Below, piece after piece: positions 9,567 to 24,423 of a stretch of 64,000 nucleotides of DNA; positions within the stretch are counted from its first letter, which is position 1; every line of letters starts with the position of its first letter. This stretch comes from Roseibaca calidilacus (lineage in GTDB: Bacteria > Pseudomonadota > Alphaproteobacteria > Rhodobacterales > Rhodobacteraceae). Below the pieces are notes generated by a model that was not told the origin of the DNA, did no database searches, and was given only the letters and a program-made list of their open reading frames with translations. The stretch lies in NCBI RefSeq assembly GCF_001517585.1, contig NZ_FBYC01000001.1, positions 62,001 to 126,000 on the forward strand, written 5' to 3'. A program made the position numbers and the translations under genes.

Positions 9567-9618
9567 TCGGCCCCCGACATTTCTGACAGCCTAACGCGGG
9601 CGTGGTGCGAAATACGAC

Positions 9619-9642
9619 CAAAAAGGCCGGGTCGCGGCCATT
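9619..9642 (-). terminator. rho-independent terminator of the sigma/NrsF operon
   Basis: Read on the minus strand, a stem GGCCG-CGACC-CGGCC is followed by TTTTT. It lies about 30 bases after the nrsF stop codon and before the lyase operon, so it separates the two transcription units. Confidence 0.65.
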
Positions 9643-9668
9643 TTCCGGCGTCGCCGCCCAAGCGGGCG

Positions 9669-10301: not shown

Positions 10302-10840
10302 TCGATCATCCTTTCGCGCAGCCGGGCGACGGATTTCAGCGCACGATGCAGTGCCACACGCACTGCCCCTTCGGACATGTTCAGCCGCGCTGCGGTTTCG
10401 GCGGTGCTTTCCCCGTTCACGCCAAAGGCGCGGACCAGATCGGCCTCGCGTGGTTCAAGCGCGTTCAGCACCTTTTCCATATCGCGCCCCATGGTCGGGT
10501 CCGGTGGGTCGGCGGCGGGCAACCCTTCGGCGAAATCGTCGATGGACAGGACCACGCGCGACCCGCGCGTCCGAAACGCATCGACCACCTTGTGACGCGC
10601 AATCGCATACAACCAAGGGCGCAAGGGTTGGTCTTCGCGCCATGTGTGGCGTTTGCGGTGAATGGCCAGCAGTACATCTTGCAAGACATCTTCGCAGCCT
10701 TCTGGCCCAAGGCCCGCCCCGCGCGCCCGCACCACCTTGCGCAGGATGGGCGTGATCGCTGTCAAAGCGCGATGATAGGCGAGCGTGTCGCCGCGATTGG
10801 CCGCGCGCATCAAATCCTCCAGGCGGTCCGGCTCTGTCAT
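10298..10840 (-). CDS. sigF: ECF sigma factor of the NrsF-linked (SigF-like) type
   Basis: This 180-residue protein has the two ECF domains. Region 2 includes EDVLQDVLLAIHRKRHTW and PWLYAIARHKVVDAFR; region 4 is a helix-turn-helix with STAETAARLNMSEGAVRVALHRAL. Sigma factors coupled to DUF1109 proteins respond to oxidative or heavy-metal stress in alphaproteobacteria. The gene is autogenously paired with nrsF by a four-base overlap. I could not identify a confident matching promoter upstream. The symbol follows the Caulobacter system by analogy. Confidence 0.85.
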   Translation of the reverse strand: MTEPDRLEDLMRAANRGDTLAYHRALTAITPILRKVVRARGAGLGPEGCEDVLQDVLLAIHRKRHTWREDQPLRPWLYAIARHKVVDAFRTRGSRVVLSIDDFAEGLPAADPPDPTMGRDMEKVLNALEPREADLVRAFGVNGESTAETAARLNMSEGAVRVALHRALKSVARLRERMID

Positions 10841-10931
10841 TCCAGTCTCAACCCTCTGTTCGGTGCGCGTGCGTCAGACGTTACGTCCCATATTCGTTGG
10901 CAACACAGAATAGGTATAGGCTTGTGGCGTA

Positions 10932-11126
10932 TCAAAACGGCGTGTCCTGTGATTGCAGGTCAGGGGCAGAGCAAGCAATCCGCAACGCCCTGCCATCCCT
11001 GCGCAGATCATCCGGGTTGCACGACCATTGCGGGCCGGTGGGGGCATATAGCCCGTCGAACTGCCCGGCTTGGGCCGTAACCGCGCCACCAAGGCATAGG
11101 GCGCTGAAACCTGTTCTGAACCGCAT
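10932..11126 (-). pseudogene. short remnant of a small secreted protein
   Basis: A 64-residue frame starts with a signal-peptide-like segment (MRFRTGFSALCLGGAVTAQA). It continues with GQFDGLYAPTGPQWSCNPDD and then DGRALRI, which resembles the opening of small periplasmic proteins I recall from Rhodobacterales. The remainder expected for that family is absent and the frame ends abruptly. It fills part of the ~360-base gap between the sigma factor and the hydrolase gene. It may be a decayed gene or a chance frame. Confidence 0.3.
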
Positions 11127-11204
11127 TTTGCTTAGTCAATCCGTCGATAGATCGGGACTGTAGTTTAACGCCGGGGATGCGCATGAACAGTGGGTTTGTG
11201 CGCA

Positions 11205-11960
11205 TCAATGATCGTGCAGAAAATCTTGCACCAGCGAATTGAACAAGGCCGGCTTTTCCATATGCGCGGCATGGCTAGCGCCGGGGATGACCGCCAGTTC
11301 TGCGCCGCGTATCCCGGACCACAGGGCATTGACCTGTGGCCAGCGATATGACCTGTCCAGATCGCCCCAGATAATCCGGCAAGGCAGGGCGAAACCCTGA
11401 AGTTGCGCGCGCCCGTCCCAATCGCGCATCGCGGTCAGGGCGTTGCGCGCAGCGTCTGGCCGGGCCATGCGCGCAATGTCGCGCGTTGCGGTATACCCCT
11501 GCCCGGTGGGGCCAGTGCGGAACCATGTGGCGCTTATCCGGTCTGCGGTGGCGTGCACCCCGTCCGCGTCCAGCCGTGCGAGGGAGGTTTCGATCGGCTC
11601 GAACCGGTCGGGCATCAGGCCCAGTGGGCCGGTGCCGTAAAGCACAAGTGCCTTTATGCGCTGTGGGTGGCGTGCTGCGATGTCTTGCACGATCATCCCG
11701 CCCATGCTGTGGCCCAGAAGCGTGAACCTGTCCAAGCCCAGCCGGTCAAGGCAGCCCATCACGGCGGCGCTAAAATCGGCTATGCTGCGTGGTCCCGGCA
11801 GCGATGCAGCCCGGCCAAAACCCGGCAGGTCTGGTGCAATCACGTCATGGCTGGCCGAAAACGCCGCGATCTGCGCGGCCCATTGCGCACTGCCGCCCAG
11901 ATAGCCATGCACCAGCACCAATGGCTTGCCCGCCCCCGCACGCAGATATGGCAGGTCCAT
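11205..11960 (-). CDS. alpha/beta-hydrolase
   Basis: This 251-residue protein has the canonical fold. The oxyanion motif is HGYLGGSAQW, the nucleophile elbow is GHSMGG, the acid is likely in WGDLDRSY and the catalytic His is in GASHAAHMEKP. It resembles 3-oxoadipate enol-lactonase or carboxylesterase-type enzymes, but the substrate cannot be read. The start at 11960 overlaps the dctM stop (TGATG), which makes it the last gene of the TRAP operon. It may cleave an ester or lactone form of the imported compound. Confidence 0.8.
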   Translation of the reverse strand: MDLPYLRAGAGKPLVLVHGYLGGSAQWAAQIAAFSASHDVIAPDLPGFGRAASLPGPRSIADFSAAVMGCLDRLGLDRFTLLGHSMGGMIVQDIAARHPQRIKALVLYGTGPLGLMPDRFEPIETSLARLDADGVHATADRISATWFRTGPTGQGYTATRDIARMARPDAARNALTAMRDWDGRAQLQGFALPCRIIWGDLDRSYRWPQVNALWSGIRGAELAVIPGASHAAHMEKPALFNSLVQDFLHDH

Positions 11961-13261
11961 CAACGCACCTGTTCGGGCAGCCAAAGCGCGGCTTGCGGGA
12001 ATGCGATCATAACGCCCACCAGCACCACCAGCGCGGCGATGAAGGGCAGGCTGCCGACGATCACATCAGGCACCGACACTTTGCCCCGGCTGATGCCCGA
12101 GATGACATACAGGTTCAGCCCAACCGGTGGCGTTAACACCGCAATTTCCATGGTGATGGTATAGACAATCCCGAACCAGATCAGGTCGAACCCGGCTGCC
12201 AGAATAAGCGGGATGATGACGGGCAGGGTGATGAAGGTCATCGACACGGGTTCAAGGAACATGCCCAGTGCGATGTAGAACGCGATCACAAGTGCCAGCA
12301 CCATGTAGGGCGACAGCTCGAATGCCAGGAAAAGCGCTGTCACCTGTTGCGGCACGCGGTAATAATTCAGCACGAAGCCGAACAGCACACCCGCCGACAG
12401 CAGCAGCCCCAGATAGCCCATGGTGCGCATGGTGGCCATCAGCGCTTCGACAAAGCCCTTCCAACGCAACCCGCCGACACCCACGGCCAGCGCAACCGTG
12501 ACCAGCGCGGCAATGGCGGCGGCTTCGGTCGGCGTGGCAATGCCGCCATAGATGGACACGGTAATCACCCCGCCGATGATGATGATCGGCCCCAGCGACA
12601 CGGCAATCTGGATCAGCGCCAGCTTTGGGCCGGTGTCGCGGTCGGGCACATGGGATGGGTAAAGCTGCGCCCAGATCAGCACCACAACCACGAAGAATCC
12701 GGCCAGCAGCAGGCCCGGGACCACCCCGGCCATGAACAATTGCCCGATGGATTGGTCGGTGACGATACCGTAGAACAGCAGGATCAAGCTGGGGGGCAAC
12801 AGCACGCTAAGCGTGCCACCCGCCGCCAGCACCCCGCTGGCCAGCCGCCGGTCATAGCCCAGTCGCAGCATTTCTGGCAGCGCCACGCCGCCGATGGTCA
12901 GCGATCCGACCATGGACGACCCCGACACCGCGCCAAACCCCGCGCAGGCCCCGATGGACCCATAGGCCGCAGACCCCCGGATCGGCACGCCGCGATGCAG
13001 GAACATGTATAGGTTGGCCCCGATATTCGACCGGCTTATCAACTCGCCCAGGAACACGAATAACGGCACCGCCAGCAGGATGTAGTTGATCCACACGCCC
13101 CAGAGCTTCAGTTGTGCGGACACCAGCGAGGTGTTGAAACTCTGGATTTGCCACAGGAAGGGCAAGGACGCCGCCGCCAGTGCAAAGGGTATAGGCAGGC
13201 CCAGCCCAATCATCACGATCAGCAGGCCCAAAAGGCCAAGCGCGACTTCATACCATTCCAT
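11960..13261 (-). CDS. dctM: TRAP transporter large permease subunit
   Basis: This 433-residue protein has about twelve hydrophobic helices and the motifs of the DctM/SiaM family (GLGLPIPFALAA near the start, GAVSGSSMVGSLTIGGVALPEML, and PPVGLNLYVISGIS near the end). It is the sodium-coupled transport subunit in the inner membrane. It overlaps the end of dctQ by 14 bases and its stop overlaps the hydrolase start, so the three are one operon with dctP. The substrate is not evident from this subunit. Confidence 0.92.
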   Translation of the reverse strand: MEWYEVALGLLGLLIVMIGLGLPIPFALAAASLPFLWQIQSFNTSLVSAQLKLWGVWINYILLAVPLFVFLGELISRSNIGANLYMFLHRGVPIRGSAAYGSIGACAGFGAVSGSSMVGSLTIGGVALPEMLRLGYDRRLASGVLAAGGTLSVLLPPSLILLFYGIVTDQSIGQLFMAGVVPGLLLAGFFVVVVLIWAQLYPSHVPDRDTGPKLALIQIAVSLGPIIIIGGVITVSIYGGIATPTEAAAIAALVTVALAVGVGGLRWKGFVEALMATMRTMGYLGLLLSAGVLFGFVLNYYRVPQQVTALFLAFELSPYMVLALVIAFYIALGMFLEPVSMTFITLPVIIPLILAAGFDLIWFGIVYTITMEIAVLTPPVGLNLYVISGISRGKVSVPDVIVGSLPFIAALVVLVGVMIAFPQAALWLPEQVR

Positions 13262-13772
13262 CAGGCGCGTCCTTAGCAGGGGCGGGGCGCAGCGCGATCT
13301 GCACCAGCCGCAGCATGGCGTAAAGTGTGAACACCGTCAGTGCGAACGCCGCGACACCCCAGAACAGGTAGCGCGGCCAACTCAGGATTTCCGAGGACGA
13401 CCCGGAATTGAACGCCCGGATCGTGGCGTTGACCGTGGTGATGGAAAAGAACACCCCAATCAGGACCATGATTGCGCCGTTCATCAATGCGACCAGCTTT
13501 TGCAGGGGTGGGCTGAAGGCATCGGTCAGCAATGTTACGCGAGGGTAGGAATCTTCGCGCATGGCATAGGCCAGCCCGACCAATGCGACGGGGAACAACA
13601 GCAGCGCCGTGGCCTCTGTCACCATCCGGTCGGGCTGGCCCATGACATAGCGCATGAACACGCCGTAGCTGATCCAGACCATCTGGATCACGATAATCGC
13701 AGAGCCGAGTGCGGCCAAAGCAACCACCACCCATTCAACGGCTTTCGTGGCCCTGTCGACAAGATTGAGCAT
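13248..13772 (-). CDS. dctQ: TRAP transporter small permease subunit
   Basis: This 174-residue protein has four membrane segments and the DctQ signature (VDRATKAVEWVVVALAALGS with later FMRYVMGQPDRMVTEATALL). It bridges DctM and the substrate-loaded binding protein. The start at 13772 is chosen because AAGAGGG lies five bases upstream; the frame extends further but without a ribosome-binding site. It lies between dctP and dctM in the usual P-Q-M order. Confidence 0.9.
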   Translation of the reverse strand: MLNLVDRATKAVEWVVVALAALGSAIIVIQMVWISYGVFMRYVMGQPDRMVTEATALLLFPVALVGLAYAMREDSYPRVTLLTDAFSPPLQKLVALMNGAIMVLIGVFFSITTVNATIRAFNSGSSSEILSWPRYLFWGVAAFALTVFTLYAMLRLVQIALRPAPAKDAPDGMV

Positions 13773-13845
13773 AGAACCCTCTTGGTCTGGACTGACGTGG
13801 CGTGCAGGGGGATGACGCCGCAAGGCAGCGTCACCCCCTAGCACA

Positions 13846-14829
13846 TTATTTCTGATGCGCGGCGAACAGGTCGCGGATTTGGCCTGCCATATCCGGCCCG
13901 CAGGCGCTGTCGACCTCTTCCGTCCATTTCGCCGCGATATCTGTGATCATCGCGTTGCGCTCGTCGTCCGAAATCGACACGGCTGCGCCGCCGCCCTTCA
14001 TCACGGCATTGCCGACTTGCCCGTCAATCCAGTCCTCGTAGCGCGGCTGCAACCAGAGTTCCGATTCCGCCCCCGCTTCCAGCAAGGCGGTCTGGTCAGC
14101 TTCGGACAGGCTGTTGAAGCGGTCAAGGTTCATCATGTATTGGATGTTGCCATAGAACAGGCTGGCATTGACCATGTAGGGCATGACATTCCACAATTGC
14201 CACGAACTGTAGGTCGCAACGCCCATATTGATGCCGTTGACCACGCCGCGCTCGGCGGATTGGAACACCTCGCCCGGTGCAATGAAAACCGGCTCGCCGC
14301 CCCAGCTTTCGATCATCATGCTCACCAGCGGCCCAATAGAGCGCACAAGCTTGCCGTCCAGATTGCTCAGGCTGTCGATCGGCCCTTGGAACCACCATTC
14401 CTGGTCGTAGGAATAGTTTGAATTGATGACCGGTATCAGCCCGACATTCGCGGCTTCGGGCGCGATCAATTCGGCATAGGCGGCGTCCAGCCCGATCTGG
14501 TCGGTCAGGTCGATTGCCGCGGGGTAAAGCGATGTCACGCGGTAGCAAGGCAGACGGGTATCTGCGGAAATCCAAGCGATGTCAGCTACACCGCCCTGAA
14601 TGGCATCGACCCCGTCCGACCACCCATGCAAGGTCGAGGACGGAAATATCTCGACCGTCAGGCGGCCTTCGGTCTTTTCGGCAACCAGTTCGGCGAATTT
14701 CACGAACCCTTGGTAGCGGATGTCGGTTTCATTGACATAGGTGGACAGGCGGATCGTTTCGGCCTGCGCTATGCCAGCGACAAGGGCACCGCCAAGCGAC
14801 AGGGCCAGCAATTTGGAAAGCTGTGTCAT
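13846..14829 (-). CDS. dctP: TRAP transporter periplasmic binding protein
   Basis: This 327-residue DctP-type protein begins with a signal peptide (MTQLSKLLALSLGGALVAG, cleaved after AQA). It shows the family features FAELVAEKTEGRLTVEIFPSS, a GVADIAW strand and a VNGINMGVATYSSWQLW segment late in the protein. It binds a small acid in the periplasm and hands it to DctQM. It lies 39 bases downstream of cuyA on the same strand. Together with the cuyA-linked LysR this suggests cysteate or a related sulfonate as the ligand. That is an inference from position. Confidence 0.88.
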   Translation of the reverse strand: MTQLSKLLALSLGGALVAGIAQAETIRLSTYVNETDIRYQGFVKFAELVAEKTEGRLTVEIFPSSTLHGWSDGVDAIQGGVADIAWISADTRLPCYRVTSLYPAAIDLTDQIGLDAAYAELIAPEAANVGLIPVINSNYSYDQEWWFQGPIDSLSNLDGKLVRSIGPLVSMMIESWGGEPVFIAPGEVFQSAERGVVNGINMGVATYSSWQLWNVMPYMVNASLFYGNIQYMMNLDRFNSLSEADQTALLEAGAESELWLQPRYEDWIDGQVGNAVMKGGGAAVSISDDERNAMITDIAAKWTEEVDSACGPDMAGQIRDLFAAHQK

Positions 14830-14868
14830 GGGTCATCTCCGTTGTTGAACATGGGGGTGGCGGGCCGC

Positions 14869-15754
14869 TCAGGCGGCCTTCTGGGTATTGAACAGGTGGC
14901 CATAGGCAAACAGCGCCGCAGACCCGCCCGTATGCAGAAAGACAACGCGGTCGGTTTTCCGGAATGCACCCGCGCGGACCATGGCGACCAGCCCGGCAAA
15001 GCCCTTGCCGGAATAGACCGGGTCCAGCAAAATCCCTTCCAGCCGGGCCAACAGTAGCATGGCGTCTACCATCGCATCGGTGGGTTGGCCGTAGCCGGGA
15101 CCGACCTGATCGTCATACGCCACAACCATATCGCGGGGCAGATCGCCACGCGCGCCTAACAGCTCGGCGGTGCGTTGCGCCAGCTTGTGCACATTGTCGA
15201 TCTGCTTTTCGCGCGGCGCGCGCACGGAATGGCCCGTGACGGGAATGGGGGCGTTCATTGCGAACAGCCCGGCCAGAAGCCCGGCTTGCGTGCCCGCGCT
15301 GCCAGTGGCATGAACAATGTGGTCAATGCGCAGATCGGCGGCATCGGCTTGGGCCACCAGTTCCTCGGCGCAGGCGGCATAGCCCAAGGCCCCCACAGGG
15401 TTCGACCCGCCACCGGGAATGACATAAGGCTTGCGGCCTTGGTCGCGCAGCGTGTCGGCCAAGGCTTCGGCCTCGGCATTCATGTCCAGACCTTCGGGGC
15501 GGAAATCGAAGCTACAGTCCATCATAACGTCCAGCAGCACATTGCCCGCGTCCTCATAGTCCGCGCCTTGGTTGGTGACACGCCGTTCCAGCAGCGCATG
15601 GCAGCCCAGCCCCGCGCGGCAGGCGGCGGCGGCGGTCTGGCGCACATGGTTGGATTGCGTGGCACCTTGCGTCACCAGCGTATCGGCCCCCTGCGCCAGC
15701 GCGTCGGCGACCAGAAATTCCAATTTGCGGGTCTTGTTCCCGCCAGAGGCCAGC
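14869..15754 (-). pseudogene. cuyA: cuyA, 3' part (L-cysteate sulfo-lyase / D-cysteine desulfhydrase-like), split by the Mu-like element
   Basis: This is about 295 codons of a fold-type II PLP enzyme, entering directly at LASGGNKTRKLEFLVADALA, the segment with the PLP-binding lysine. It continues to a normal C-terminus (HTGGSAALFAYG). The N-terminal ~44 residues are absent here but lie in the same orientation at 24294-24423, on the other side of the 8.5-kb element. CuyA releases sulfite, pyruvate and ammonia from L-cysteate; close relatives act on D-cysteine. An ATG at 15723 could start translation but would omit the PLP lysine. Removing the element with one copy of the 5-bp duplication restores one open frame. 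The downstream TRAP genes probably lose their upstream promoter. Confidence 0.88.
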
Positions 15755-15800
15755 TGTACGCTGTCACTTGTTTTGATCTACGTTGTCACTTGGTTTGATC
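15755..15800. repeat. left end of the Mu-like element with two transposase-site-like repeats
   Basis: The end begins TGTACGC. Two direct copies of GTCACTTGKTTTGATC lie at 15763-15778 and 15785-15800, 22 bases apart (about two helical turns). The first copy is placed exactly as the equivalent motif at the right end. Phage Mu ends also begin TG and contain several binding sites for the transposase. Confidence 0.8.
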
Positions 15801-15862
15801 CGCCGGGATTATCTTGGACGTGGTGGCATCTGGTGGGACTGGATGCCGTTTTCGAACGCCGG

Positions 15863-16234
15863 TTACAGACCGTTTAACTGCCGGTTGAGGGCGCGTTTCA
15901 GGCCGCCGATCCGGTGCGCATAGCGGTGCAGACTACTGCGGCTTGGAGCCTTGTCACCGAAGCGCGCGCGACATTCTTCGGCCAGCGCGCTGAAGGTCAT
16001 CGTGCCGATCCGGGCATTGACGAACGCCAGAACCTCCGCATTCCGCATGGCCATAGGCATTGCTCCACCCTTCCGGGGGAGGCTGACCAGCGTGGCGCGG
16101 ATGCGATCTTCGCGCCAGGCATCGGAACCGAAGCGCGCCGCGCATTCCTTGGCGATCTCAGCATGGCAAAGGCCAGCGGGCTGTACGATCAGCCAACTGG
16201 CAATCTCCATGTCCTTCGCGCCCAAGGTGGGCAT
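15863..16234 (-). CDS. last gene of the Mu-like element; duplicated helix-turn-helix-like protein
   Basis: This 123-residue protein starts two bases after the gpI stop; an in-frame extension upstream is less likely. It contains a visible tandem repeat: HAEIAKECAARFGSDAWRED in the first half (~residues 22-42) and FSALAEECRARFGDKAPSR in the second (~80-98), each followed by an R-x-L helix. Each half has the look of a helix-turn-helix. I do not recognise a named family. In a cluster of head genes a DNA-binding protein could act in packaging or late control, but this is speculation. The gene ends about 110 bases before the element's left end. Confidence 0.65.
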   Translation of the reverse strand: MPTLGAKDMEIASWLIVQPAGLCHAEIAKECAARFGSDAWREDRIRATLVSLPRKGGAMPMAMRNAEVLAFVNARIGTMTFSALAEECRARFGDKAPSRSSLHRYAHRIGGLKRALNRQLNGL

Positions 16235-16235
16235 G

Positions 16236-17219
16236 TCAGCCGCCTTCGCGCTGAAGCGTCTTGCGGAACGCCTCTTGCGACACGCCCAGGCGCGACAGGA
16301 TTTCCTGTTCATCACCCGTCCCGCCGCTGGTCATGAGGGCCAGCTCTTGCCGGTCACGGGGTAGACCGCGCCCCGCGATCTGACTGCCGGGGGTCAGAAC
16401 CGGCACCATCTGGCGGGCGAACTCGTCAAACCGTTCCGGGTTTTCACGGCAAAGGGCGAGGCCCCATTCCCGCAGGTAGGGCGGCAACTTGCCCGAGGTG
16501 ATTGCGCCATCCACGGCGGCAAGCGCCTTGCCTTCGGCTTCGCGCGCCCGTGCCCGGTTCAGTTCAAGCGCCAGCTCCATCGTGCCGCCATCCGTCTCCT
16601 GACGTTGCTGCGACGGCTCCGGCGCAGGCTCGCTTTCACGATTGACCAGGGCCGACACCGCTTGCAGCAACGCGTCATCCGCGATGTCCTCCGGCAAGGC
16701 CAGCATCTGGATGAGCTGCCCGCGCAGATCAGCCGCCGCCAGTTCGGGCGGATCAGCCGGTGGGTTTTCCTGACTGGCGAGCGCAGTGAGTTGAAGGTTG
16801 GGGTTGTTCGTCAACGCGGCGCGGTGAAGGCGCATGATTTCTCCTGTGGTCTTGTGGAACGTGAAGACAGGGCTGAGGAACCGGTACTCCTTGCTGGCAA
16901 GATGCTGGCGCGCCTTGTCGGTCCATTCGACACGTCCCCAGATGCCCTGGGCATCGGCCTTCAGTTCCTTGATCCAGCCCGCCGCCGGAGCGGGCTGGCC
17001 GTTTTTGGTGGCGTGGTCGATCTGGTGTTCATAATCGACCGGCAAATCCATGCCGAGCTTGCGGGTCGCAGCGATGATGTCGGCGGCATCGCGCACCATG
17101 TAAGGGCCGCGCCCATCGCGCCCGTTGAAGGTGCCGAGAGGCAGAAGGTGAACCCAGTCTTGCGCCTGGCCGGATGTGGCCAGCTCGACAGACCAGGCGG
17201 ACTGGTGAATGGAAGTCAT
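16236..17219 (-). CDS. Mu gpI-like prohead protease/scaffold
   Basis: This 327-residue protein matches Mu-like prophage I proteins (COG4388), the precursor of a self-cleaving protease with a scaffold tail. The N-terminal half contains VHLLPLGTFNGRDGRGPYMV, DLPVDYEHQIDHATKNGQPAPAAGWIKEL and KEYRFLSPVF, all typical of that family. The C-terminal half is a charged helical region (TMELALELNRARAREAEGKA) suited to a scaffold. It overlaps the gpG-like gene by four bases (ATGA). In Mu, gpI works with gpT in prohead assembly, and both are present here. Confidence 0.88.
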   Translation of the reverse strand: MTSIHQSAWSVELATSGQAQDWVHLLPLGTFNGRDGRGPYMVRDAADIIAATRKLGMDLPVDYEHQIDHATKNGQPAPAAGWIKELKADAQGIWGRVEWTDKARQHLASKEYRFLSPVFTFHKTTGEIMRLHRAALTNNPNLQLTALASQENPPADPPELAAADLRGQLIQMLALPEDIADDALLQAVSALVNRESEPAPEPSQQRQETDGGTMELALELNRARAREAEGKALAAVDGAITSGKLPPYLREWGLALCRENPERFDEFARQMVPVLTPGSQIAGRGLPRDRQELALMTSGGTGDEQEILSRLGVSQEAFRKTLQREGG

Positions 17220-17833
17220 CGGCGAAGCCCTTCTGTGATGTGGTCGTTGACGATGCGCCCGATTTCCTGCCGGTTTTCCTCGTTCAATCCGAGGAAGGGA
17301 CGCGCGGGAATTGTGACCTGACGGCCCCGGCCCGCTTGTCCGCCCATCTGGTGAATGCGCGCATAGGCGCGGTTCGTCCCGACCGCGACTTGCGAATGCG
17401 AGGCGCTGTAGCTCAGGGAGCCATAGAGGTGACCACGGTCGCGCAACTTCTTTGCCCCGGCACCGCGCCGCAAAAGGGTGGCGGTGGAATGGCCCGCCCA
17501 TCCGGTTCCATCCGGGGCGGTTTCGCTTTCGAAATTGCTTTCGACCTCAGACTGAAGATAGCTGCCGATTTCCTGGAACACCGACTGCATGTTGGAGCCG
17601 CGTTCCGCAAGGCGTTGCAGCGCAGCCATGAAGCCGTCTCTATCGACCACCTGGATAATCATCTGACGGCCGCCCTGGGCGATGCGCCCCAGTTCGACCA
17701 GGCCACCCGCAACATCGCCTCCTATGGCACCGGCTTCAACATTGCGGCCGCCCCGACCGGCTTGGCTTGCACCGCGCCGCGCCCCGCCGCCCGCCATCGC
17801 CCGCAGAACGACACCCAAGATCGGCCCTGCCAT
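17216..17833 (-). CDS. Mu gpG / phage virion morphogenesis family protein
   Basis: This 205-residue protein belongs to the family that includes Mu gpG and P2 gpS (tail completion/virion morphogenesis). Diagnostic parts are the helix FMAALQRLAERGSNMQSVFQEIGSYLQSEVESNF, the region TGWAGHSTATLLRRGAGAKKLRDRGHLYGSLSY, and IPARPFLGLNEENRQEI near the end. A glycine-rich N-terminal extension (residues 1-57) is unusual; a start at 17662 would give the standard length. The longer start is supported by AAGGGGG eight bases upstream. It is the only gene in the element pointing to head-tail joining. Confidence 0.82.
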   Translation of the reverse strand: MAGPILGVVLRAMAGGGARRGASQAGRGGRNVEAGAIGGDVAGGLVELGRIAQGGRQMIIQVVDRDGFMAALQRLAERGSNMQSVFQEIGSYLQSEVESNFESETAPDGTGWAGHSTATLLRRGAGAKKLRDRGHLYGSLSYSASHSQVAVGTNRAYARIHQMGGQAGRGRQVTIPARPFLGLNEENRQEIGRIVNDHITEGLRR

Positions 17834-17845
17834 GGCGTATCCCCC

Positions 17846-18763
17846 TTATGCTGCCAGATGCGACGTGACGATCAGCTTGGCGCTGTCTGCCCATTCGTTG
17901 GTCACGGCAACATGCTGCCCGCCCACCTCGACGATGGTGGAGCCGTTCTTCAGAAGCCGAAGCGCCGCACCTTCCAGTTCCGGCGGAACAACCAGGGCCG
18001 TGGGGCGCACGTTCAGAAGCTGGCCGTGATCCCCGCGCAGGGTCATCATCGCCGTGCGGGCCGCTTCGTAATTGTCCTTGGTCAGATCGGCTTTGCTGGC
18101 ATAGGCCAGTTGCCACAGGCCGAACCCGGCATTGACGCGCGCCCGTACCCCGTAGATGTATTCGTCGCGCATGAACACATGCTCATCGTTGTCGCGGTCC
18201 AGGGCGGTGAACTTGTAGGGCACACGCTCCTGCCAGATGATCGGACGCACTGCGCGGCTCAGATCGAGAAGATACCAGGCAGGACCACTGCCCGCCTGCA
18301 TGTTCGAAACACTGACCTCTTCGCCCTGGGCATTCGTGCCCAGGTGATCGGTATCGAAGAAATATTGACCATCATAGCAAGCCGTGCTGAAGCCGTTGGC
18401 CAGAAGGCGGAATACCAGCTCGTTGGGATGGTCGCGCGCTTCGCGGCCCATTTCCGAGATCATCGGCCCGAAGACACCATAGGTGTCATCTTCGAGAGCA
18501 TCACGCGGCACGGCGATGGTGCTTTCGAACTTGCGGTTCTTGATGCGCCAGTCATGCACCGACAGGTTGCGGATGACGCGATCACCAATCCACTCGCGCA
18601 GGCGCGGGAAGCTGCCCAGCCATCCGTAGATTTCTTCGGCGTTCGAACTGGGCACCCGCATGGTGATCTCTTCAAAGTGGCTTGGCGCATTGTCGAACGC
18701 CTCGTTGAAGACGGTCTGGAAGCCACGGAAGACGGTGGAAAGGTTTCCGGAATTGACGATCAT
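17846..18763 (-). CDS. Mu gpT-like major capsid protein
   Basis: This 305-residue protein is of the same size and pattern as the Mu major head subunit gpT. It has an N-terminal segment FRGFQTVFNEAFDNAPSHFEEITM, the region GWLGSFPRLREWIGDRVIRNL, FESTIAVPRDALEDDTYGVFGPMISEMGREA and a final YIYGVRARVNAGFGLWQLA plus LLNVRPTALVVPPEL. All are strongly conserved in gpT homologues. Its ATG overlaps the stop of the Mor-like regulator gene (ATGA), an unusual direct coupling. No minor capsid or portal gene is near. Confidence 0.92.
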   Translation of the reverse strand: MIVNSGNLSTVFRGFQTVFNEAFDNAPSHFEEITMRVPSSNAEEIYGWLGSFPRLREWIGDRVIRNLSVHDWRIKNRKFESTIAVPRDALEDDTYGVFGPMISEMGREARDHPNELVFRLLANGFSTACYDGQYFFDTDHLGTNAQGEEVSVSNMQAGSGPAWYLLDLSRAVRPIIWQERVPYKFTALDRDNDEHVFMRDEYIYGVRARVNAGFGLWQLAYASKADLTKDNYEAARTAMMTLRGDHGQLLNVRPTALVVPPELEGAALRLLKNGSTIVEVGGQHVAVTNEWADSAKLIVTSHLAA

Positions 18764-19245
18764 TGCTCGAACTTCTCTTTCGATTTGGGGTTCTGGGGGC
18801 GATGCGGCAGGGCAACGCCCGCTTCACGCATGGTGCAGATGGTACGGCGCGCGGTTCTGCGGCTGACGCGCGTCAGCTTTGCGATTTCGACCGTGCTGAG
18901 GGTGGTGTTGACGATCAGGCGACGGATACGGATAGCCTGCGCATTCTTGCTCGACATGGCCCCGTGCGGGACTTCGACTGCACCGCTTCCATATTTGGTG
19001 ATCAGCCATTCCAGCACATCCCGACCAACCAGCTTGCTCACGGGATGGTCATCGGTGGCCTTCAGCGGAACGAACAATTCTCCGCCGCCGAAGTTCTCAA
19101 GGAAGAGGCGGGCGGCATGCTCCCCGAACCGCTCAGCAAGCTCGACCTCCATGTACGTGACATAGAGACCGAGCTTTCGCCTTTCGGCGATGGAAGGGTA
19201 TTCGTTGGAAAGCACTGGTGCCGCCCGCCTCGCTTGCATGATCAT
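18760..19245 (-). CDS. Mor-like transcriptional activator
   Basis: This 161-residue protein resembles Mor/C middle- and late-operon activators. It contains a dimerisation part (YMEVELAERFGEHAARLFLENFGGGELFVPL, residues ~30-62), a second similar unit (VSKLVGRDVLEWLITKYGSGAVEVP) and a C-terminal helix-turn-helix (LSTVEIAKLTRVSRRTARRTICTM). In Mu, Mor turns on the middle promoter needed for late genes. Here the gene directly precedes and overlaps the capsid gene. ATG at 19245 is used; a TTG one codon earlier and an ATG two codons later are alternatives. Confidence 0.75.
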   Translation of the reverse strand: MIMQARRAAPVLSNEYPSIAERRKLGLYVTYMEVELAERFGEHAARLFLENFGGGELFVPLKATDDHPVSKLVGRDVLEWLITKYGSGAVEVPHGAMSSKNAQAIRIRRLIVNTTLSTVEIAKLTRVSRRTARRTICTMREAGVALPHRPQNPKSKEKFEQ

Positions 19246-19357
19246 CAATGCAGGCGACGCTATCCGGACGTATGTCCCTGATCACCCCGGACAGCGTTCC
19301 GGTTATCGTGCTGTGGGTGAATGAAGGTTGCCCCGGACTGGACTGGGCGGCGGCGGG

Positions 19358-19552
19358 TCAACTGCCGCCGCTTTCCTTTTCCCGGCGTTCCTGAAGTGCG
19401 ACCAGCGCCGCGCGCAAGCCTTCCAGGGCGGGCAACAGGAAGAACTTGCAAAACAGCCCCACCAAGACCCATGCAAGCATCAGCGCCGCGAACGCAATCC
19501 CGAGAAGCGCGCCGATGCCGAAGAACAGGAAAAAGGGTCCGAAGGCTTCCAT
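19358..19552 (-). CDS. small single- or double-span membrane protein of the element
   Basis: This 64-residue protein opens MEAFGPFFLFFGIGALLG and has one long hydrophobic stretch (residues ~4-38), perhaps two short helices, followed by a charged tail (LQERREKESGGS). The size and topology would allow a holin-like or anchoring role. No lysin gene is present in the element, so lysis cannot be inferred. I do not recognise a family. Confidence 0.55.
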   Translation of the reverse strand: MEAFGPFFLFFGIGALLGIAFAALMLAWVLVGLFCKFFLLPALEGLRAALVALQERREKESGGS

Positions 19553-19647
19553 CTGTGATCTTTCTGTCAGCGGTCAGGATAGGCGGAACACGGCGCGCAT
19601 TTCAATGCCCATCGAAGGCCGCGCCCAAAACGCCCCACAGCCCCTCC

Positions 19648-19672
19648 TTAAACGCGTTTAACAGGCGTTTAA
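19648..19672. promoter_or_regulatory. palindrome and repeat upstream of the Mor-capsid part
   Basis: A perfect 14-base palindrome TTAAACGCGTTTAA (19648-19661) is followed by another CGTTTAA half-site (19666-19672). It lies in the ~240-base gap between the gemA-like gene and the small membrane-protein gene, just upstream of the Mor/gpT part of the operon. It is therefore a good candidate operator or promoter site for a separate middle/late transcript. The binding protein is unknown. Confidence 0.4.
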
Positions 19673-19795
19673 GAAATTTTCGGCGGTGAGGGGTGCCGAG
19701 AGACAGGAAGCCGCTCAGTGGGCCGCTGAGAGGCTTGGAGCAAAAAGGGGCGATGCCGCGCACCGCCCCCTTCAACGTTTGTCGCGCCGCGCAGG

Positions 19796-20209
19796 TCATG
19801 CGGCCTTGTCGCGGGCCTTCATCTTCTTCAGGGCGGTGATCACCTTGCGCGCGTCGTGGGCCGTCACGAAGCGCAGGCTGGACATGCCGAAGTACCGTTC
19901 CAGCCAGACCGCCAGACCGTCTTCAACATCGGCACCTGACCACTCCTTCCAGATCGTCCTGATCAGTTCGAGCTGGGCGAAGCTGGCCATGCCCTCCCGC
20001 GCGCCATAGTCCGGCCCCTTGGCGGTCAACGGCTTGAAGCCCAGATATTCGAACAAGCCCATGAGCGCCGTGAACCCGTCCTGGTCGAGCTCCGTCACGG
20101 AGGTGACCCCGCAAAGATCGACCAGGCCAGACCGGAACTCTGCTTCGGTCAGCCCCAGCTTGCTCTTGGCCACATGGATAAGGGCGATCTGTTTGTTACT
20201 GATCGACAT
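19796..20209 (-). CDS. gemA: GemA (Mu gp16)-like regulatory protein
   Basis: This 137-residue protein opens MSISNKQIALIHVAKSKLGLTEAEFRSGL, the hallmark of the GemA/gp16 (DUF1018) family of Mu-like phages. It continues with LDQDGFTALMGLFEYLGFKP, also typical. GemA homologues modulate host gene expression and DNA supercoiling in Mu. A strong ribosome-binding site (AAAGGAGG) precedes the start, and the gene overlaps the preceding small gene by 14 bases. It marks the end of the early region. Confidence 0.85.
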   Translation of the reverse strand: MSISNKQIALIHVAKSKLGLTEAEFRSGLVDLCGVTSVTELDQDGFTALMGLFEYLGFKPLTAKGPDYGAREGMASFAQLELIRTIWKEWSGADVEDGLAVWLERYFGMSSLRFVTAHDARKVITALKKMKARDKAA

Positions 20210-20510
20210 TGCCCGCCTCCTTTCCGTTGCGCGTGGTGGCGTTGATCAGATCCACGATCTGCGTGTGCATGCCTTCAAGATCGGCCTGGACGCGCACGCC
20301 CATCTCCGCGCCCGCCTTCGCGGCGGCGCTGATCATGTCGATCTTGTGCGAGTGGCGCGAGGAAACCTCGAGTTCGGTCACCAGGTCATCCACCAGCTTC
20401 AGGAGCGCCGCCAGAGACCCCACGTCCGCGATTGCGTCATTGGATGCCATGTAAAGGCCGTCGCGGCACAGGGTCAGCGTTGCCTTGGGGTTTTCAGAAG
20501 AAGTGATCAT
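20196..20510 (-). CDS. early-region protein of unknown function
   Basis: This 104-residue acidic helical protein lies between muB and gemA. It has an amphipathic helix (GSLAALLKLVDDLVTELEVS) and a central alanine-rich helix (ISAAAKAGAEMGVRVQADLEG). No catalytic motif is visible. AAAGGAA precedes the ATG. Its position corresponds to the semi-essential early genes of Mu-like phages, which often encode small modifiers; I do not recognise a family. Confidence 0.6.
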   Translation of the reverse strand: MITSSENPKATLTLCRDGLYMASNDAIADVGSLAALLKLVDDLVTELEVSSRHSHKIDMISAAAKAGAEMGVRVQADLEGMHTQIVDLINATTRNGKEAGNVDQ

Positions 20511-20522
20511 TGGACAATTCCT

Positions 20523-21272
20523 TTATTTTACGCGCAGTTGAGCGAGGGCGGTGTTGATGTGGGCTTGGGTAATGTCTCCTTGCCGCGCAAGGATCGCTGC
20601 AAGCTGAAGAACCTTCACGACGCTTCGGATTTGACGCGTTGCCGTTCCCTCCGGATTTTCACCAGAGAGGGCGGCGAGCGCGGATGCACACCTGACCCCG
20701 TAGGAAGCGGCGATCTGTTGAAGGTCTTGCGCTGTTGCGGCACCGAGGATCAGCTTTGGATCCGCTCTGGTCCATAGCTTTGACAGTCGCTTGAGTTTTT
20801 GCGCAAGGCTCATGTCGCCGATCAGCGCAAGGTTTGCGCCAGCCTCTTCACAAGTGATGCGCAGCCATTCAAGACCGGTTTCGCTGAGATTGTTGGCCTC
20901 GTCGAAGATAATGGTTGCGCCCGAAAGCTGCCGCCCTTCCCGAAGCGATCGACGGATCGAGGTTTCGTTTTGGTATTCGTATGCAACATGGCAGTGTGAG
21001 GCGAGGAGCTCTGCGGGCTCACGATCTCGGGTTTTTCGATTGCCACTCCCTGCCGCGGTGAAGATCAGAACATTGCTGTTCATCATCTTGAAGTGCTTGG
21101 CAGCCTCGGTTTTGCCGATGCCTGGGACACCAGCGATCATCGCCATCTGCGGACCGGGCAGCACCGTGATCAACTCTAGGGCGTCAACAATTTTCTGAGC
21201 TGTCGGCGTGGTTACAAAACCTCCAGGCTCAGGTGGCGGATCGGTCTTGGCAAGAGGGATAGGTTCTGGCAT
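20523..21272 (-). CDS. MuB-like transposition ATPase
   Basis: This 249-residue AAA+ protein selects target DNA and activates the MuA-type transposase. Walker A is GVPGIGKT (residues 48-55) and Walker B is ATIIFDEAN (~119-127). A sensor-like LALIGDMSL strand follows. The C-terminal domain (~190-249) is helical, as in MuB. The start at 21272 is chosen because AGAGGAGG lies six bases upstream; an upstream ATG at 21341 overlaps the muA stop and would add 23 residues. Confidence 0.88.
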   Translation of the reverse strand: MPEPIPLAKTDPPPEPGGFVTTPTAQKIVDALELITVLPGPQMAMIAGVPGIGKTEAAKHFKMMNSNVLIFTAAGSGNRKTRDREPAELLASHCHVAYEYQNETSIRRSLREGRQLSGATIIFDEANNLSETGLEWLRITCEEAGANLALIGDMSLAQKLKRLSKLWTRADPKLILGAATAQDLQQIAASYGVRCASALAALSGENPEGTATRQIRSVVKVLQLAAILARQGDITQAHINTALAQLRVK

Positions 21273-21337
21273 GTTTGCCTCCTCTGAGTACGCGGGCTCG
21301 CCCGCATTAATGGCATGAGAGGCGGGTTCAGCGCTTC

Positions 21338-23275
21338 TCATGCCTCATTCCTTTTCTTCAAACCTTCGGTCTTGAATTGTTGCAGCACAGCCAAGATTTT
21401 TGGGTCAGAAGAGTGTTCTGAAGTCGGTTTTTTCGATCCGCGCAGCGGTGACGCAAAGTGCCCGGCGACAACTTTGCTGTTTTCGACTTCTGTCGAAGCG
21501 GTGTCGCATCCGCCTTCGTCCAGTTCTGCAAGAAGTTGCTGATATTCATTAACAGCCAATAGATTGGTCGCGGCGTCTGCTTCCTGGGCCGCTTTTCGGG
21601 CAGCCTTCTTGTTCTTGCTCGCCTGTTGGACGCCTTCGGAGCTGTCATAATCTCCGCGCTTTACGTGCGCGATGTCAGCACAGATAAGCCGCATACTCTC
21701 GTCATAAGCTACGCCTGGAGCGCTGAAGTTGGTCGGATCATATCCGAACAGAACCTTCTTTTTCTTTTCGTGGTGCGGCATCAGTGCGTTCACCGATGTA
21801 TGATCACCGTAAACCCAGTTGTTGATCTTGATGCGGCCATTGAGGTCAACGGCCCGCCATTCGTAAGTCAGGCTGGCATGATAGAGCTGTTGCTCCGTCG
21901 CTTTGCGCAATACTCGACCCGCCATAAGATCATTGAATTGCTGATCGTAAGAACGCCCATTCGCGCCTTGGTTGCGCCGTCCTGTCTCTGTATTGTGCCG
22001 TTCGACCTCGCGCGTGATCACAGAACGCGCGAACTCAAAAGTCACGGGAGTGATGCTGCTATCAGGCTTTTCGCCAACGCTGTGGCCAGCATGCGCGCCT
22101 TTGAACTCAGGTCGATCATCTATGCTGCGTGATAGGGTTCGAAAGGTTCGCTCCGCCTCCTTGGCGCGACCATTCCTTGGAAGTGCGAAGTGCATCTTGA
22201 TGCCCAATAGAGCACAAACACCGGGCGGCGTTGTGCCGACCTCCAGCTTGCGCTTCTTTCTGAAATGGGTTGGGTTGCCGCCAGCAATGAGGTTCCCGGC
22301 GAAGGCGCGGCCATTGTCAGTGTACAGCTTGTCAAACAGGCCATATTTACGCACGGTCTCGACGATAAGCGCCTTGGTTGTAGCGGCATCTTCGGCTGAG
22401 GCCAGCTTCCAGCCAAGAATCTTGGTGGATGCCACATCAACCAGAGCCAAGAAGGTAGGCCGAAGCGGGCTGCCATTCGTCCCCTCGATGAAGAAATCAA
22501 GCGTCCGGCCATCCAGCGAAACCCATTCCAGAGCGTGAATGCTTGTCTTGTCGCGCAACACAGGCTGCGAAAGCCGCTTCTGCGCCTCCTTCTGGCCCAC
22601 CCGTGCAGTCAGCCTTTCGGTGTATGGCAGCGCCTTCCAGCGGCGATTGACTGTTTCATATGCAGGCCAGCGCCAGCCCTGCTTCTGCGCCACATCGCGC
22701 GTATCACGCCACGCTTGAATGATCGGGAAATCCTGATGGGCGAGATGGATCGTCTTCAAGAAGAATTTCCAAGCGGCTTCGCTCATCTCCGCCTCCACCG
22801 TCCTTCCGGTATGTGCGGTGAGGAGTGCGGGGGCGTAGTTGATTTGGTCAACACCTTTCAGCGCGGCGAGAAGGCGTTTCAGCGACGCAACTGAGAGCAT
22901 ATCACCATTGAACTGCGCGCTCAGGCGCCCATGGCAGTCGGCCCACTTAACCCCGCTGTCGCGTAGCTGTTGGAGCGCGCATGCAATCTTTGCCTTGCGC
23001 TCAGCATCGGCGCGGCGTGTCGGTGCGGCCGCCAGGAAGGCTTCCCAAGCATCGCCGTCCCACTCACCTTGCGCCCGACCATCCTTTGGGCCAAGCGCCG
23101 CCGCAAATGCCTGAAGCTCCGGTTGCGGCAGCTCTGCGGGGTCGATCACCAGCCTTTCGCCGCCTGGACATGGTTGGCGGTGAACGGTGATCCCATTACG
23201 CTCAAGCCACTTTCGGGCAGATGTTTTGTCGCGCGGTATCGCCCCAACACCAAGGAGTTCTTTTACTGGTGTCAT
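21338..23275 (-). CDS. MuA-type DDE transposase
   Basis: This 645-residue protein is close in length to MuA (663). After N-terminal DNA-binding regions (residues ~1-240) the retroviral-integrase-like core shows D255 in LEWVSLDGRTL, D320 in LYTDNGRAF and the glutamate in RAKEAERTF (E375). A beta-barrel domain (~460-540, WRAVDLNGRIKINNWVYG) and a charged C-terminal tail that could contact MuB follow. The start overlaps the upstream HTH gene (ATGA). The gene is intact, so the element should be able to move unless repressed. The stretch around 21.3-22.5 kb is visibly less GC-rich than the host genes. Confidence 0.93.
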   Translation of the reverse strand: MTPVKELLGVGAIPRDKTSARKWLERNGITVHRQPCPGGERLVIDPAELPQPELQAFAAALGPKDGRAQGEWDGDAWEAFLAAAPTRRADAERKAKIACALQQLRDSGVKWADCHGRLSAQFNGDMLSVASLKRLLAALKGVDQINYAPALLTAHTGRTVEAEMSEAAWKFFLKTIHLAHQDFPIIQAWRDTRDVAQKQGWRWPAYETVNRRWKALPYTERLTARVGQKEAQKRLSQPVLRDKTSIHALEWVSLDGRTLDFFIEGTNGSPLRPTFLALVDVASTKILGWKLASAEDAATTKALIVETVRKYGLFDKLYTDNGRAFAGNLIAGGNPTHFRKKRKLEVGTTPPGVCALLGIKMHFALPRNGRAKEAERTFRTLSRSIDDRPEFKGAHAGHSVGEKPDSSITPVTFEFARSVITREVERHNTETGRRNQGANGRSYDQQFNDLMAGRVLRKATEQQLYHASLTYEWRAVDLNGRIKINNWVYGDHTSVNALMPHHEKKKKVLFGYDPTNFSAPGVAYDESMRLICADIAHVKRGDYDSSEGVQQASKNKKAARKAAQEADAATNLLAVNEYQQLLAELDEGGCDTASTEVENSKVVAGHFASPLRGSKKPTSEHSSDPKILAVLQQFKTEGLKKRNEA

Positions 23276-23490
23276 GGCGCGTCTCGCCTTTTGGCTTCGC
23301 AGTATACACGCTCCACCAACGCCGCTGCTTTCGGTCCTGCCCAGTCGCCGATCAGAGCTTTTCTCACATTCTGCTTTGCAAAGCCGTTTTTTCGTGCCCA
23401 GCCCGATAGGGTTTGACCCTGCATAACCAGCAAGCCCATGACCTCTTTCAAGAGTTCTGGAGATGGTGTAGGGTGTTGATAGGCAATCAT
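23272..23490 (-). CDS. small early DNA-binding protein (Ner-like position)
   Basis: This 72-residue protein is first in the leftward operon and overlaps the transposase start. It contains a helix-turn-helix-like part (LSGWARKNGFAKQNVRKALIGDW), reminiscent of Nlp/Ner or phage-associated HTH proteins. In Mu, ner sits immediately after the early promoter and turns down both early and repressor transcription. The same position here suggests a similar job. Sequence similarity to Ner itself cannot be judged by eye. Confidence 0.65.
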   Translation of the reverse strand: MIAYQHPTPSPELLKEVMGLLVMQGQTLSGWARKNGFAKQNVRKALIGDWAGPKAAALVERVYCEAKRRDAP

Positions 23491-23519
23491 GCATCGACCT
23501 CGTGGGTTTGCATGTAAAC

Positions 23520-23534
23520 TATGTCATCGACATA
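23520..23534. promoter_or_regulatory. palindromic operator between repressor and early operon
   Basis: The perfect inverted repeat TATGTC-ATC-GACATA lies in the 63-base gap between the divergent repressor (23554) and the first early gene (ends 23490). This is where the repressor of a transposable phage would act. A second, looser TGCATGTAAAC segment sits just upstream. Assignment is by position and symmetry. Confidence 0.55.
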
Positions 23535-23553
23535 TTCAAGTCAAGGGGGCTTC

Positions 23554-24084
23554 ATGGGGACTACCACCGACGATTTAATCGACCAGTTGAAGGAAAAGTT
23601 CGCGGTCGAAACCGATGCGGACCTCGCGCGGAAGCTCCGGGTGGATAAGAGCACTGTCTCATCTTGGCGGCGCAGGGATGGACTGCCCGCCCGGTTCCAA
23701 AAAATCCTAGAGGTTGGCCTTTCGGCGCAATCGGTGCAGGCACCGCCGCTTGAATGGGGCGAAGAAGAGAAAAAGGCATTCTCGCTCGCCCTATTTCGTT
23801 ATTGCCGCCTATACGCAGACATCGTGAAGCGTGGCGAGTTCCGAGACCTTGCCAACTTGTTCCCCGGTGGTATGGGGGCTTTCTGGGTGTTGATGTCTCA
23901 GGCACACAGAGACCTGATCAGTCGGCAAGGCTCAGGCCAGCACAGCCTCGATACGGCCCTGAGCTTGTGCATCTACGATGACCTCGAATACGGCTCTGGC
24001 GCAATCGAGAGAGATCTGTCTCTTGTGCCCAGCCATATGAGACCGGCTCAGGCCGCCGATGACCGCCCGTCAGACAAAAAATGA
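23554..24084 (+). CDS. CI-like repressor of the Mu-like element
   Basis: This 176-residue protein has an N-terminal helix-turn-helix of the phage CI type (residues ~5-45: TTTDDLIDQLKEKFAVETDA, then LARKLRVDKSTVSSWRRRDGLP). The C-terminal part is helical, not an obvious LexA-like protease domain, so SOS cleavage is not indicated. Its start is chosen at MGTTTDD because AAGGGGG precedes it; an ATG at 23521 would place the operator inside the gene. It is the only rightward gene of the element and presumably keeps the transposition operon silent. Confidence 0.78.
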   Translation: MGTTTDDLIDQLKEKFAVETDADLARKLRVDKSTVSSWRRRDGLPARFQKILEVGLSAQSVQAPPLEWGEEEKKAFSLALFRYCRLYADIVKRGEFRDLANLFPGGMGAFWVLMSQAHRDLISRQGSGQHSLDTALSLCIYDDLEYGSGAIERDLSLVPSHMRPAQAADDRPSDKK

Positions 24085-24091
24085 GGTGTGG

Positions 24092-24114
24092 GGTGTGGGC
24101 AACTTGCCCACACC
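24092..24114 (+). terminator. hairpin after the repressor gene
   Basis: A perfect 11-base stem GGTGTGGGCAA / TTGCCCACACC with a one-base gap lies eight bases after the repressor stop codon. No T-run follows, so it is a candidate terminator or RNA-stabilising hairpin rather than a classic intrinsic terminator. Confidence 0.5.
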
Positions 24115-24204
24115 CCCTCAGTTGGCCATCATTGATTTTTAAGCGTTTTTCGCGCCAGCTTCGAAGGCCCATACCCCCCCAAATCGCGCGCCAGCATGCT
24201 CCCG

Positions 24205-24293
24205 TATCAAATCAAGTGACAGCGTTCCCGCTAAGTCATTGATTTGTAACGGTCGAAAATTCGCGGCTGGATCAAATCAAGTGACCGCCCACA
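24205..24293. repeat. right end of the Mu-like element with repeated sites
   Basis: Read inward from the terminus the end begins TGTGGGC. The site GTCACTTGATTTGATC lies at 24270-24285 and a second copy (GTCACTTGATTTGATA) at 24205-24220, both in the same orientation relative to the end. Between them, at 24235-24250, is a degenerate copy in the opposite orientation (GTCATTGATTTGTAAC). The terminal copy lies at the same distance from the end as at the left terminus. Confidence 0.8.
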
Positions 24294-24423
24294 CCAGCCC
24301 GGTGCAATCATCGCGCTTGATCCAGATTTCCGGGCCACCCAGTTCGGCGCTCAACCGGTCCAGACGTTCCAGAGGGGTTGGAAAATGACCAAGCCGATAC
24401 CGCGGAAAGCGTGCAAGATGCAT
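24294..24423 (-). pseudogene. cuyA: cuyA, 5' part (residues 1-44), separated by the Mu-like element
   Basis: From ATG at 24423 the frame reads [20 protein letters not shown], then [12 protein letters not shown], then [11 protein letters not shown]. This is the standard N-terminus of CuyA / D-cysteine desulfhydrase. The frame then enters the element and stops within a few codons (…VWAVT, stop). The missing continuation, beginning ASGGNKTRK, is at 15754 and below. The promoter and start codon face the divergent LysR gene at 24531. The remaining fragment cannot form an active enzyme because the PLP lysine is elsewhere. Confidence 0.88.

Follow-up and report, generated by a model that had tools for sequence, protein, structure and literature searches.

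Capsid-forming phage-inducible chromosomal islands (cf-PICIs) are satellites that bring their own capsid protein and head protease and use helper tails (excerpts of PMC11389934 and PMC10690885), and they also encode a portal, connectors and both terminase subunits (excerpt of PMC10690885). The Streptomyces satellites MulchRoom and MiniFlayer likewise have capsid genes of their own and stand outside the PICI families; according to the same excerpt, they carry packaging genes and parasitise virulent phages. Typical satellites integrate via a tyrosine integrase, and the term transposase is absent from the paper in question (PMC10690885). Rhodobacteraceae prophages and phages with Mu-like heads are covered by PMC8224337 and PMC5488378, and the word satellite appears in neither. 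Among the matches listed in the open-licence PubMed Central (PMC) literature there was no description of Mu-like or transposable capsid-coding satellites. Here we describe such a candidate, E1, an element of 8539 bp inserted in the genome of Roseibaca calidilacus, at 15755-24293 of a 64-kb stretch of contig NZ_FBYC01000001.1 (the window, to which coordinates refer unless another sequence is named).

Like cf-PICIs (as excerpted), E1 carries its own capsid protein and head protease; unlike them, its head genes are of the Mu gpT/gpI type, MuA/MuB take the place of an integrase, and neither portal nor large terminase (TerL) is encoded, so that the cf-PICI set of own portal, connectors, TerL and small terminase (TerS) beside capsid genes is incomplete. 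Like MulchRoom and MiniFlayer, as far as the excerpt describes them, it brings capsid genes of its own without belonging to the PICI families. One relative (L019, ~8.0 kb, tyrosine integrase) resembles P4-like and other integrase-type satellites, whereas E1 itself moves by transposition rather than by site-specific integration and codes for a major capsid protein of its own. Complete Mu-type phages and E1 have homologues of MuA, MuB, Ner-like protein, repressor, GemA, Mor-like activator, gpG, gpI and gpT in common, but complete phage loci carry TerL, portal and gpF, while E1 spans 8.5 kb and its gpT falls on a separate branch.

Our best reading is a family of capsid-coding satellites, most of them transposing in the manner of Mu, for which a Mu-type helper supplies portal, large terminase and tail. 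That E1 is a transposable phage satellite coding for its own head we consider likely. With somewhat less assurance, we favour a fuller proposal: an undescribed satellite family with a Mu-type capsid lineage of its own, in which the head core became joined to at least two different MuA/MuB modules and, in relatives, to tyrosine integrases; replication would be by transposition, and ~8-9 kb would be packed into a small capsid of the satellite's own, fitted with helper portal and tail. Transposition and the lack of an own portal or large terminase would both be new among capsid-coding satellites. The DNA itself shows insertion, recurrence, shared descent, selection and the absence of portal and large terminase, and it supports mobility; packaging and helper use we infer.

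Limits and gene content of E1

The element is bounded as follows.

15755-24293: E1, 8539 bp, starting with TG and ending with CA, coordinates exact to the base
15750-15754: target-site duplication CCAGC, left copy, matching the right copy; empty site in relatives
24294-24298: target-site duplication CCAGC, right copy, matching the left copy; empty site in relatives
15755-15800, plus strand: late-gene-side terminus with the TG start; repeat units GTCACTTGnTTTGATC at 15763-15778 and 15785-15800
24205-24293, minus strand: repressor-side terminus with the CA end; repeat units GTCACTTGnTTTGATC at 24205-24220 and 24270-24285

These four copies of GTCACTTGnTTTGATC are the only sites in the genome with at most one mismatch; two mismatches add three further sites, and a control with the pattern read backwards gave two. 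The insertion splits a gene for a pyridoxal-phosphate enzyme (PF00291). When the flanks are joined minus one CCAGC, they align over the junction in five of five same-genus loci (19 other genomes matched, of which these are the best five), without gaps in three, and L347 is gapless over 602 bases. Because these empty sites align across the junction, E1 is a real unit with real limits. A chance origin of the end duplication was ruled out, empty sites having been found for E1 and for a second element, E2.

Twelve E1 proteins were scanned against Pfam and PHROGs, and are listed in their order from the repressor end.

23521-24084, plus strand: CI-type repressor, divergent (PF07022, E 1e-4)
23272-23490, minus strand: Ner-like DNA-binding protein (phrog_15281, E 1e-10; phrog_925; no Pfam family)
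21338-23275, minus strand: MuA transposase (PF02914, E 6e-20; phrog_310, E 5e-84)
20523-21341, minus strand: MuB transposition ATPase (phrog_296, E 3e-26, scanned from an inner start, 20523-21281)
20196-20510, minus strand: small unknown protein, close to where the core in common with E2 ends (20523); no Pfam or PHROGs family
19796-20209, minus strand: GemA (PF06252, E 7e-21)
19358-19552, minus strand: small hydrophobic protein, also in E2; no Pfam family, PHROGs only at E 0.019
18760-19248, minus strand: Mor-like late transcription activator (phrog_836, E 7e-14; Pfam Mor only at E 0.047)
17846-18763, minus strand: gpT, major capsid protein (PF10124, E 2e-123)
17216-17833, minus strand: gpG-like tail completion/neck protein (PF05069, E 5e-34; phrog_26)
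16236-17219, minus strand: gpI, head maturation protease/scaffold (PF10123, E 9e-67; phrog_328)
15863-16234, minus strand: conserved terminal helix-turn-helix (HTH) protein, E1x family, similar in its DNA-binding part to the small terminase Gp27 (phrog_426, E 0.0042; PF11985, E 0.021, below its cut-off)

Pfam or PHROGs name MuA, MuB, GemA, the Mor-like activator, gpT, gpI and the gpG/Phage_tail_S protein; the repressor and the protein at 23272-23490 are matched only as DNA-binding families, and the latter we take to be Ner-like from its gene position. By eye, the D, D and E residues of the transposase motif lie in plausible places. The frames of all named genes are open. A MuA-family DDE transposase with a MuB ATPase, TG..CA ends, repeated sites and a 5-bp target duplication together mark E1 as a Mu-type transposable element. 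The predicted structure of gpT was poor (mean predicted local distance difference test, pLDDT, 57.2).

The 12 scanned proteins include neither large terminase nor portal, neither gpF nor a lysis protein, and the only tail protein named among them is the gpG-like tail-completion protein; a rebuilt large-terminase model (see below) had no match in the whole window. E1 lacks the portal, large terminase and tail genes of a complete Mu-type phage and, as in a satellite, genes needed for a complete virion. The preliminary description of this DNA had placed an 8.5-kb Mu-like element at 15755-24293, and its limits hold to the base, as do the ends and target duplication that it reported; found here are TG..CA termini, two repeat units per end, CCAGC on both sides and empty sites in relatives. 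The MuA/MuB homologues, the repressor and the virion genes gpT, gpI and gpG-like that it had named are borne out by Pfam and PHROGs matches and the frames it called unbroken are open; of the terminase, portal, tail and lysis genes that it had called missing, large terminase, portal and lysis are indeed absent from the 12 scanned proteins.

Recurrence and descent of the short elements

A second short element was found in the genome that carries E1 (G000).

379355-388155 of contig C4 of G000 (9356-18156 of locus L004): E2, ~8.8 kb, on another contig than E1

The head-gene core of 4.72 kb (window 15802-20523) is 99.2% identical between E1 and E2. Their MuA and MuB belong to the same families with silent sites nearly saturated (synonymous divergence, dS, 4.0 and 2.8), and the end repeats of E2 differ from those of E1. 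At 56.4% (E1) and 58.1% (E2), the early modules have a lower G+C content than the core common to both (62.3%) or the remainder of the window (62.5%). One head-gene core joined to two different transposition modules would be the simplest reading. The empty site of E2 aligns over the junction in three of five relatives, L367 showing no gap there, and an E2-type copy lies at a different site in Maritimibacter sp. HL-12 (L016, 94.9% over 7.8 kb). Read by eye, E2 and L016 have TG..CA ends with flanking repeats of 4 bp, not 5 bp.

For the survey of the host's family, 394 genomes were searched with the gpT profile PF10124, which matched in 113 of them, often weakly or partially. All 54 gpT loci outside G000 with E <=6e-82 (two of them partial) were fetched, weaker matches being left out, and classified with models built from reference proteins: portal and/or gpF mark 30 of them as phage loci (portal in 29, gpF in 30), 20 are short elements and four fall in neither class (L219, L244, L255, L258). 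MuA is present in 18 of the short elements, the others being L217, a third copy in genome G386, and L218, at a contig end; of the 20, 18 encode the terminal HTH protein, 16 encode GemA and 15 encode MuB. The gpT gene precedes gpI in all 20 short elements, as it does in E1, and follows it in all 30 phage loci. Counting E1's own, 19 of the 394 genomes hold E1-type short elements. Our first large-terminase model matched none of the 30 phage loci, whereas one rebuilt from phage locus L362 (Pfam Terminase_6N) matched 29, missing only L247, which is cut by a contig end; the rebuilt model matched none of the 24 other family loci and none of 14 own and named short loci.

Ends were examined in 27 loci. 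Matching ends with a perfect 5-bp duplication were recognised in 11 (E1, L029, L208, L213, L215, L220, L221, L222, L223, L232 and L236), with an end similarity of 18-21 of 30 bases (candidates listed elsewhere score 17 at most) and lengths of 7.95-8.9 kb, except for L223 (6.9 kb) and L208 (10.8 kb). End repeats match without a matching duplication in L226, L227 and L235; apart from these and the two E2-type elements, ends were not recognised in the remaining loci. The longest unlabelled frame in the short-element gene maps, L208 excepted, has 281 amino acids (L223; DUF4062-like, below that family's cut-off), the maps of L017, L018, L021, L229, L233, L234, L248 and L257 being drawn with guessed element limits. 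In L208, two MuA pieces enclose a further Mu-type transposase frame (Mu-transpos_C_2). Genome G386 holds three related short-element loci (L208, L209, L217), and a Mu portal is also present there.

Further short loci came from a named-genome collection (L017 in Phyllobacterium sp. 628, with gpI before gpT, and L029 in a Rhodobacteraceae bin); L018, in a Rhodospirillales bin, is cut by a contig end and includes a tape-measure-like gene, and L021 (Sulfitobacter sp. F26204) has only a MuA fragment. A class-level sample of 385 genomes gave 12 loci outside G000, a partial match (E 2e-25) and weaker ones being left out; nine have portal and/or gpF and three are undecided. Because no clear short element was among them, the family seems concentrated in the host's family. 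In IMG/VR, 11 of 75 newly fetched loci are contigs below 10 kb with MuA or MuB plus gpT and no portal; these are metagenome contigs, not known to come from particles. One IMG/VR contig, L280, stops exactly at an element terminus (9157), which could be expected if flanks vary in the population, although chance may also account for it. A scan of viral contigs with the E1 transposase returned 12 distant loci at 25-30% identity. The phage collection contains 215 records with a gpT match, none of which reaches 60% identity, and among the 20 matches listed, isolates with a gpT relative are mostly of 36-40 kb with at most ~52% gpT identity.

The gpT tree was built from 118 sequences: 26 from short elements of the transposing type (L217 and L218, where no MuA was seen, included), seven from other short loci and 85 from phage loci. 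L257, L258, L219, L244, L255, portal-less short-contig matches and viral-contig loci other than L099 were left out. All 26 transposing-type sequences and six of the seven others form one group (ultrafast bootstrap 97, Shimodaira-Hasegawa-like approximate likelihood ratio test 98) that contains none of the 85 phage sequences; L024, a short locus without MuA, was placed with the phages. The gpT of the short elements stands apart from the 85 phage loci, so these elements did not arise by recent deletion from the complete phages of today. E1 is part of a conserved lineage distinct from complete phages, and the gpI tree (86 sequences) largely agrees, grouping 25 of 27 short-element sequences; keeping all 27 together was not rejected (approximately unbiased test, p-AU 0.265).

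Selection was gauged as the ratio of nonsynonymous to synonymous divergence (dN/dS) in nine pairs of short elements, from stop-to-stop frames; some dS values exceed 1, which makes the ratios rough. For gpT, dN/dS is 0.07-0.35 in the eight of nine pairs with a value, for gpI 0.20-0.40 in eight pairs, the ninth being almost unchanged, and for the Mor-like gene up to 0.79. The low values of gpT and gpI fit maintenance of the head genes, though single copies have clearly decayed.

The preliminary description had read E1 as a candidate satellite, with a one-off prophage deletion as the alternative, and had regarded a second copy, or the same gene set at other sites and lengths, as what would tell the two apart. 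A second, different short element (E2) lies in the same genome and an E2-type copy (L016) at another site, and short elements of the E1 type occur in 19 of 394 family genomes. Together with the separate gpT branch they favour a satellite, whose helper-dependent behaviour we infer; the deletion fares badly given that branch, apart from 85 phage loci, and the further short elements. A unique deletion of a complete prophage is ruled out by E2, L016, the family survey and the gpT tree.

Mechanism, helper and rival explanations

In the cycle that we propose, the repressor would silence E1 in the lysogen, and upon induction or helper infection MuA/MuB would replicate it by transposition. The Mor-like activator would turn on gpT, gpG and gpI, and gpT, made with the element's own gpI, would build a capsid probably smaller than the helper's. 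The size of ~8-9 kb suggests a capacity limit because it is alike in transposing and integrating relatives, and a smaller shell would explain it. The terminal HTH protein would mark satellite DNA for packaging, and large terminase, portal, tail and lysis would come from a co-infecting Mu-type helper.

For the marking step, an AlphaFold2 model of the L226 member of the terminal HTH family begins with a long helix and places the HTH domain at the C terminus (mean pLDDT 89.5, predicted template modelling score 0.49), and hhalign of 23 satellite terminal proteins against 108 phage small terminases gave a probability of 93.3% across 58 columns in the HTH region. Compared directly, the E1 protein matches the Gp27 families (PF11985 and phrog_426, listed above) weakly. 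Judged from these comparisons, it is probably a DNA-marking protein of terminase type rather than a proven small terminase.

Several results weigh against a helper-dependent satellite. No helper was seen in the host genome, whose only two gpT copies both lie in short elements, nor a Mu portal, for which the same search matched in all six other genomes to which it was applied. Foldseek against PDB returned 20 matches for the HTH protein, none with E <=0.001 (three chains of one small terminase, G20c, are among them at a non-significant E 6.7-8.2), and the small-terminase link rests on the HTH domain. The tail models matched none of the 30 phage loci and therefore do not show the absence of tail genes in the surveyed elements, which rests on their short lengths and gene maps. 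Constraint on gpG is weaker (dN/dS 0.57-0.59). In the gpI tree a pair of short-element sequences stands elsewhere and one sequence labelled full falls inside the group, a label that in this tree also covered L024. Several short elements are decayed, with a stop in gpT (L221, L223) or gpI in pieces (L217, L234, L236, L257), L209 and L248 are partial copies and the same-genus genome G395 has a decayed short element (L364). Co-occurrence with portals, finally, is weak: Mu portals occur in 50 of 394 family genomes, six of which are also among the 19 that hold short elements (p 0.02, one-sided Fisher test), a result that becomes 5/19 versus 46 (p 0.06) without four genomes with weak or partial portals, and the 30 phage genomes defined by gpT include four of the 19 (p 0.047). 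This fits a Mu-type helper and does not show one. A same-genus genome (G396) carries phage locus L362, with large terminase, portal, gpF, gpI and gpT on a 13.6-kb contig. A split prophage with its missing genes elsewhere in G000 was rejected, no Mu portal being found there; other portal and terminase families were not searched genome-wide.

The slight excess of Mu portals could also belong to an anti-phage transposon, in which gpT and gpI poison or outcompete Mu-type head assembly and nothing is packaged, and head genes without portal or terminase could serve as dominant-negative parts. Poisoning would, however, require neither a neck protein nor an HTH protein that binds DNA like Gp27, and a Gp27 match accompanies gpT in the integrase-type relatives L019 and L032; we find this explanation very improbable. 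The decayed copies, to which L208 may be added, are what would be left if Mu-type phages repeatedly shed terminase, portal and tail genes to become decaying relics. Against such remnants speak the recurring gene set with its inverted gpT-gpI order (20/20 versus 30/30 phage loci), the similar size, the 11 of 27 loci whose ends and duplications are intact, the gpT separation from all 85 phage sequences and dN/dS below 1 for gpT and gpI, and we judge them very improbable. Scarcely credible is a domesticated compartment, a transposon-borne gpT/gpI shell with a cellular role, for although neither portal nor large terminase is encoded, the elements occupy differing sites across many genera, their gene maps show no conserved cargo enzyme and phage-type regulation (repressor, Mor-like gene) is retained.

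If the transposable satellite is real, a head can be swapped without its portal, and an element that jumps into many sites and is replicated by transposition can make do with coding for a shell, a protease, a neck protein and one that marks DNA. Rules for which capsid is compatible with which foreign portal would then be predicted and could be tested, flanking host DNA might have a route between bacteria, and active elements may be among the short 'incomplete Mu prophages' of bacterial genomes.

Integrase-type relatives and insertion sites

Two short relatives carry a tyrosine integrase. L019 (Methylococcaceae bin) combines it, with an Arm-DNA-bind_3 domain, with Gp27, an AAA_25 ATPase, gpI and gpT between 17-bp repeats 8.0 kb apart; a further gene we take to be AlpA-like. 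L032 (Methylococcus bin) has integrase, Gp27 and gpT, gpI not being found there, with 55-bp repeats 9.3 kb apart that by eye resemble a tRNA end, and ARAGORN found no tRNA at them. In both, the Gp27 match covers no more than the first 60-70 of the 173 model positions. An integrase was not identified in any of L024, L025, L030, L033 and L099; L030 and L033 end ~0.3 kb from a tRNA-Met gene.

Tape-measure-like proteins lie beside gpT or gpI-gpT in L018 (11407-13371), L025 (12231-14132) and L099 (6729-8954), recognised by PF06791 in the latter two and by eye in L018, which served as model seed; it looks as if tail length were also influenced in some short loci. In L030 (Agrobacterium vitis), a gene for an OLD-like nuclease (AAA_21 plus OLD-like TOPRIM, 2987-5053) lies upstream of the Mor-gpI-gpT genes.

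L016 (~13020-13100) and L029 (~3926-4001) have different ends, and both adjoin a GGACTCGACTCC-like palindrome. The gene directly downstream of each is presumably imuB-like, and a possible insertion hot spot lies upstream of it. L227 has the same GGGGGCGCTGCCCCCGTC sequence on both flanks in opposite orientation (4320-4390 and 13400-13500), as if it had inserted into a hairpin-rich intergenic spot.

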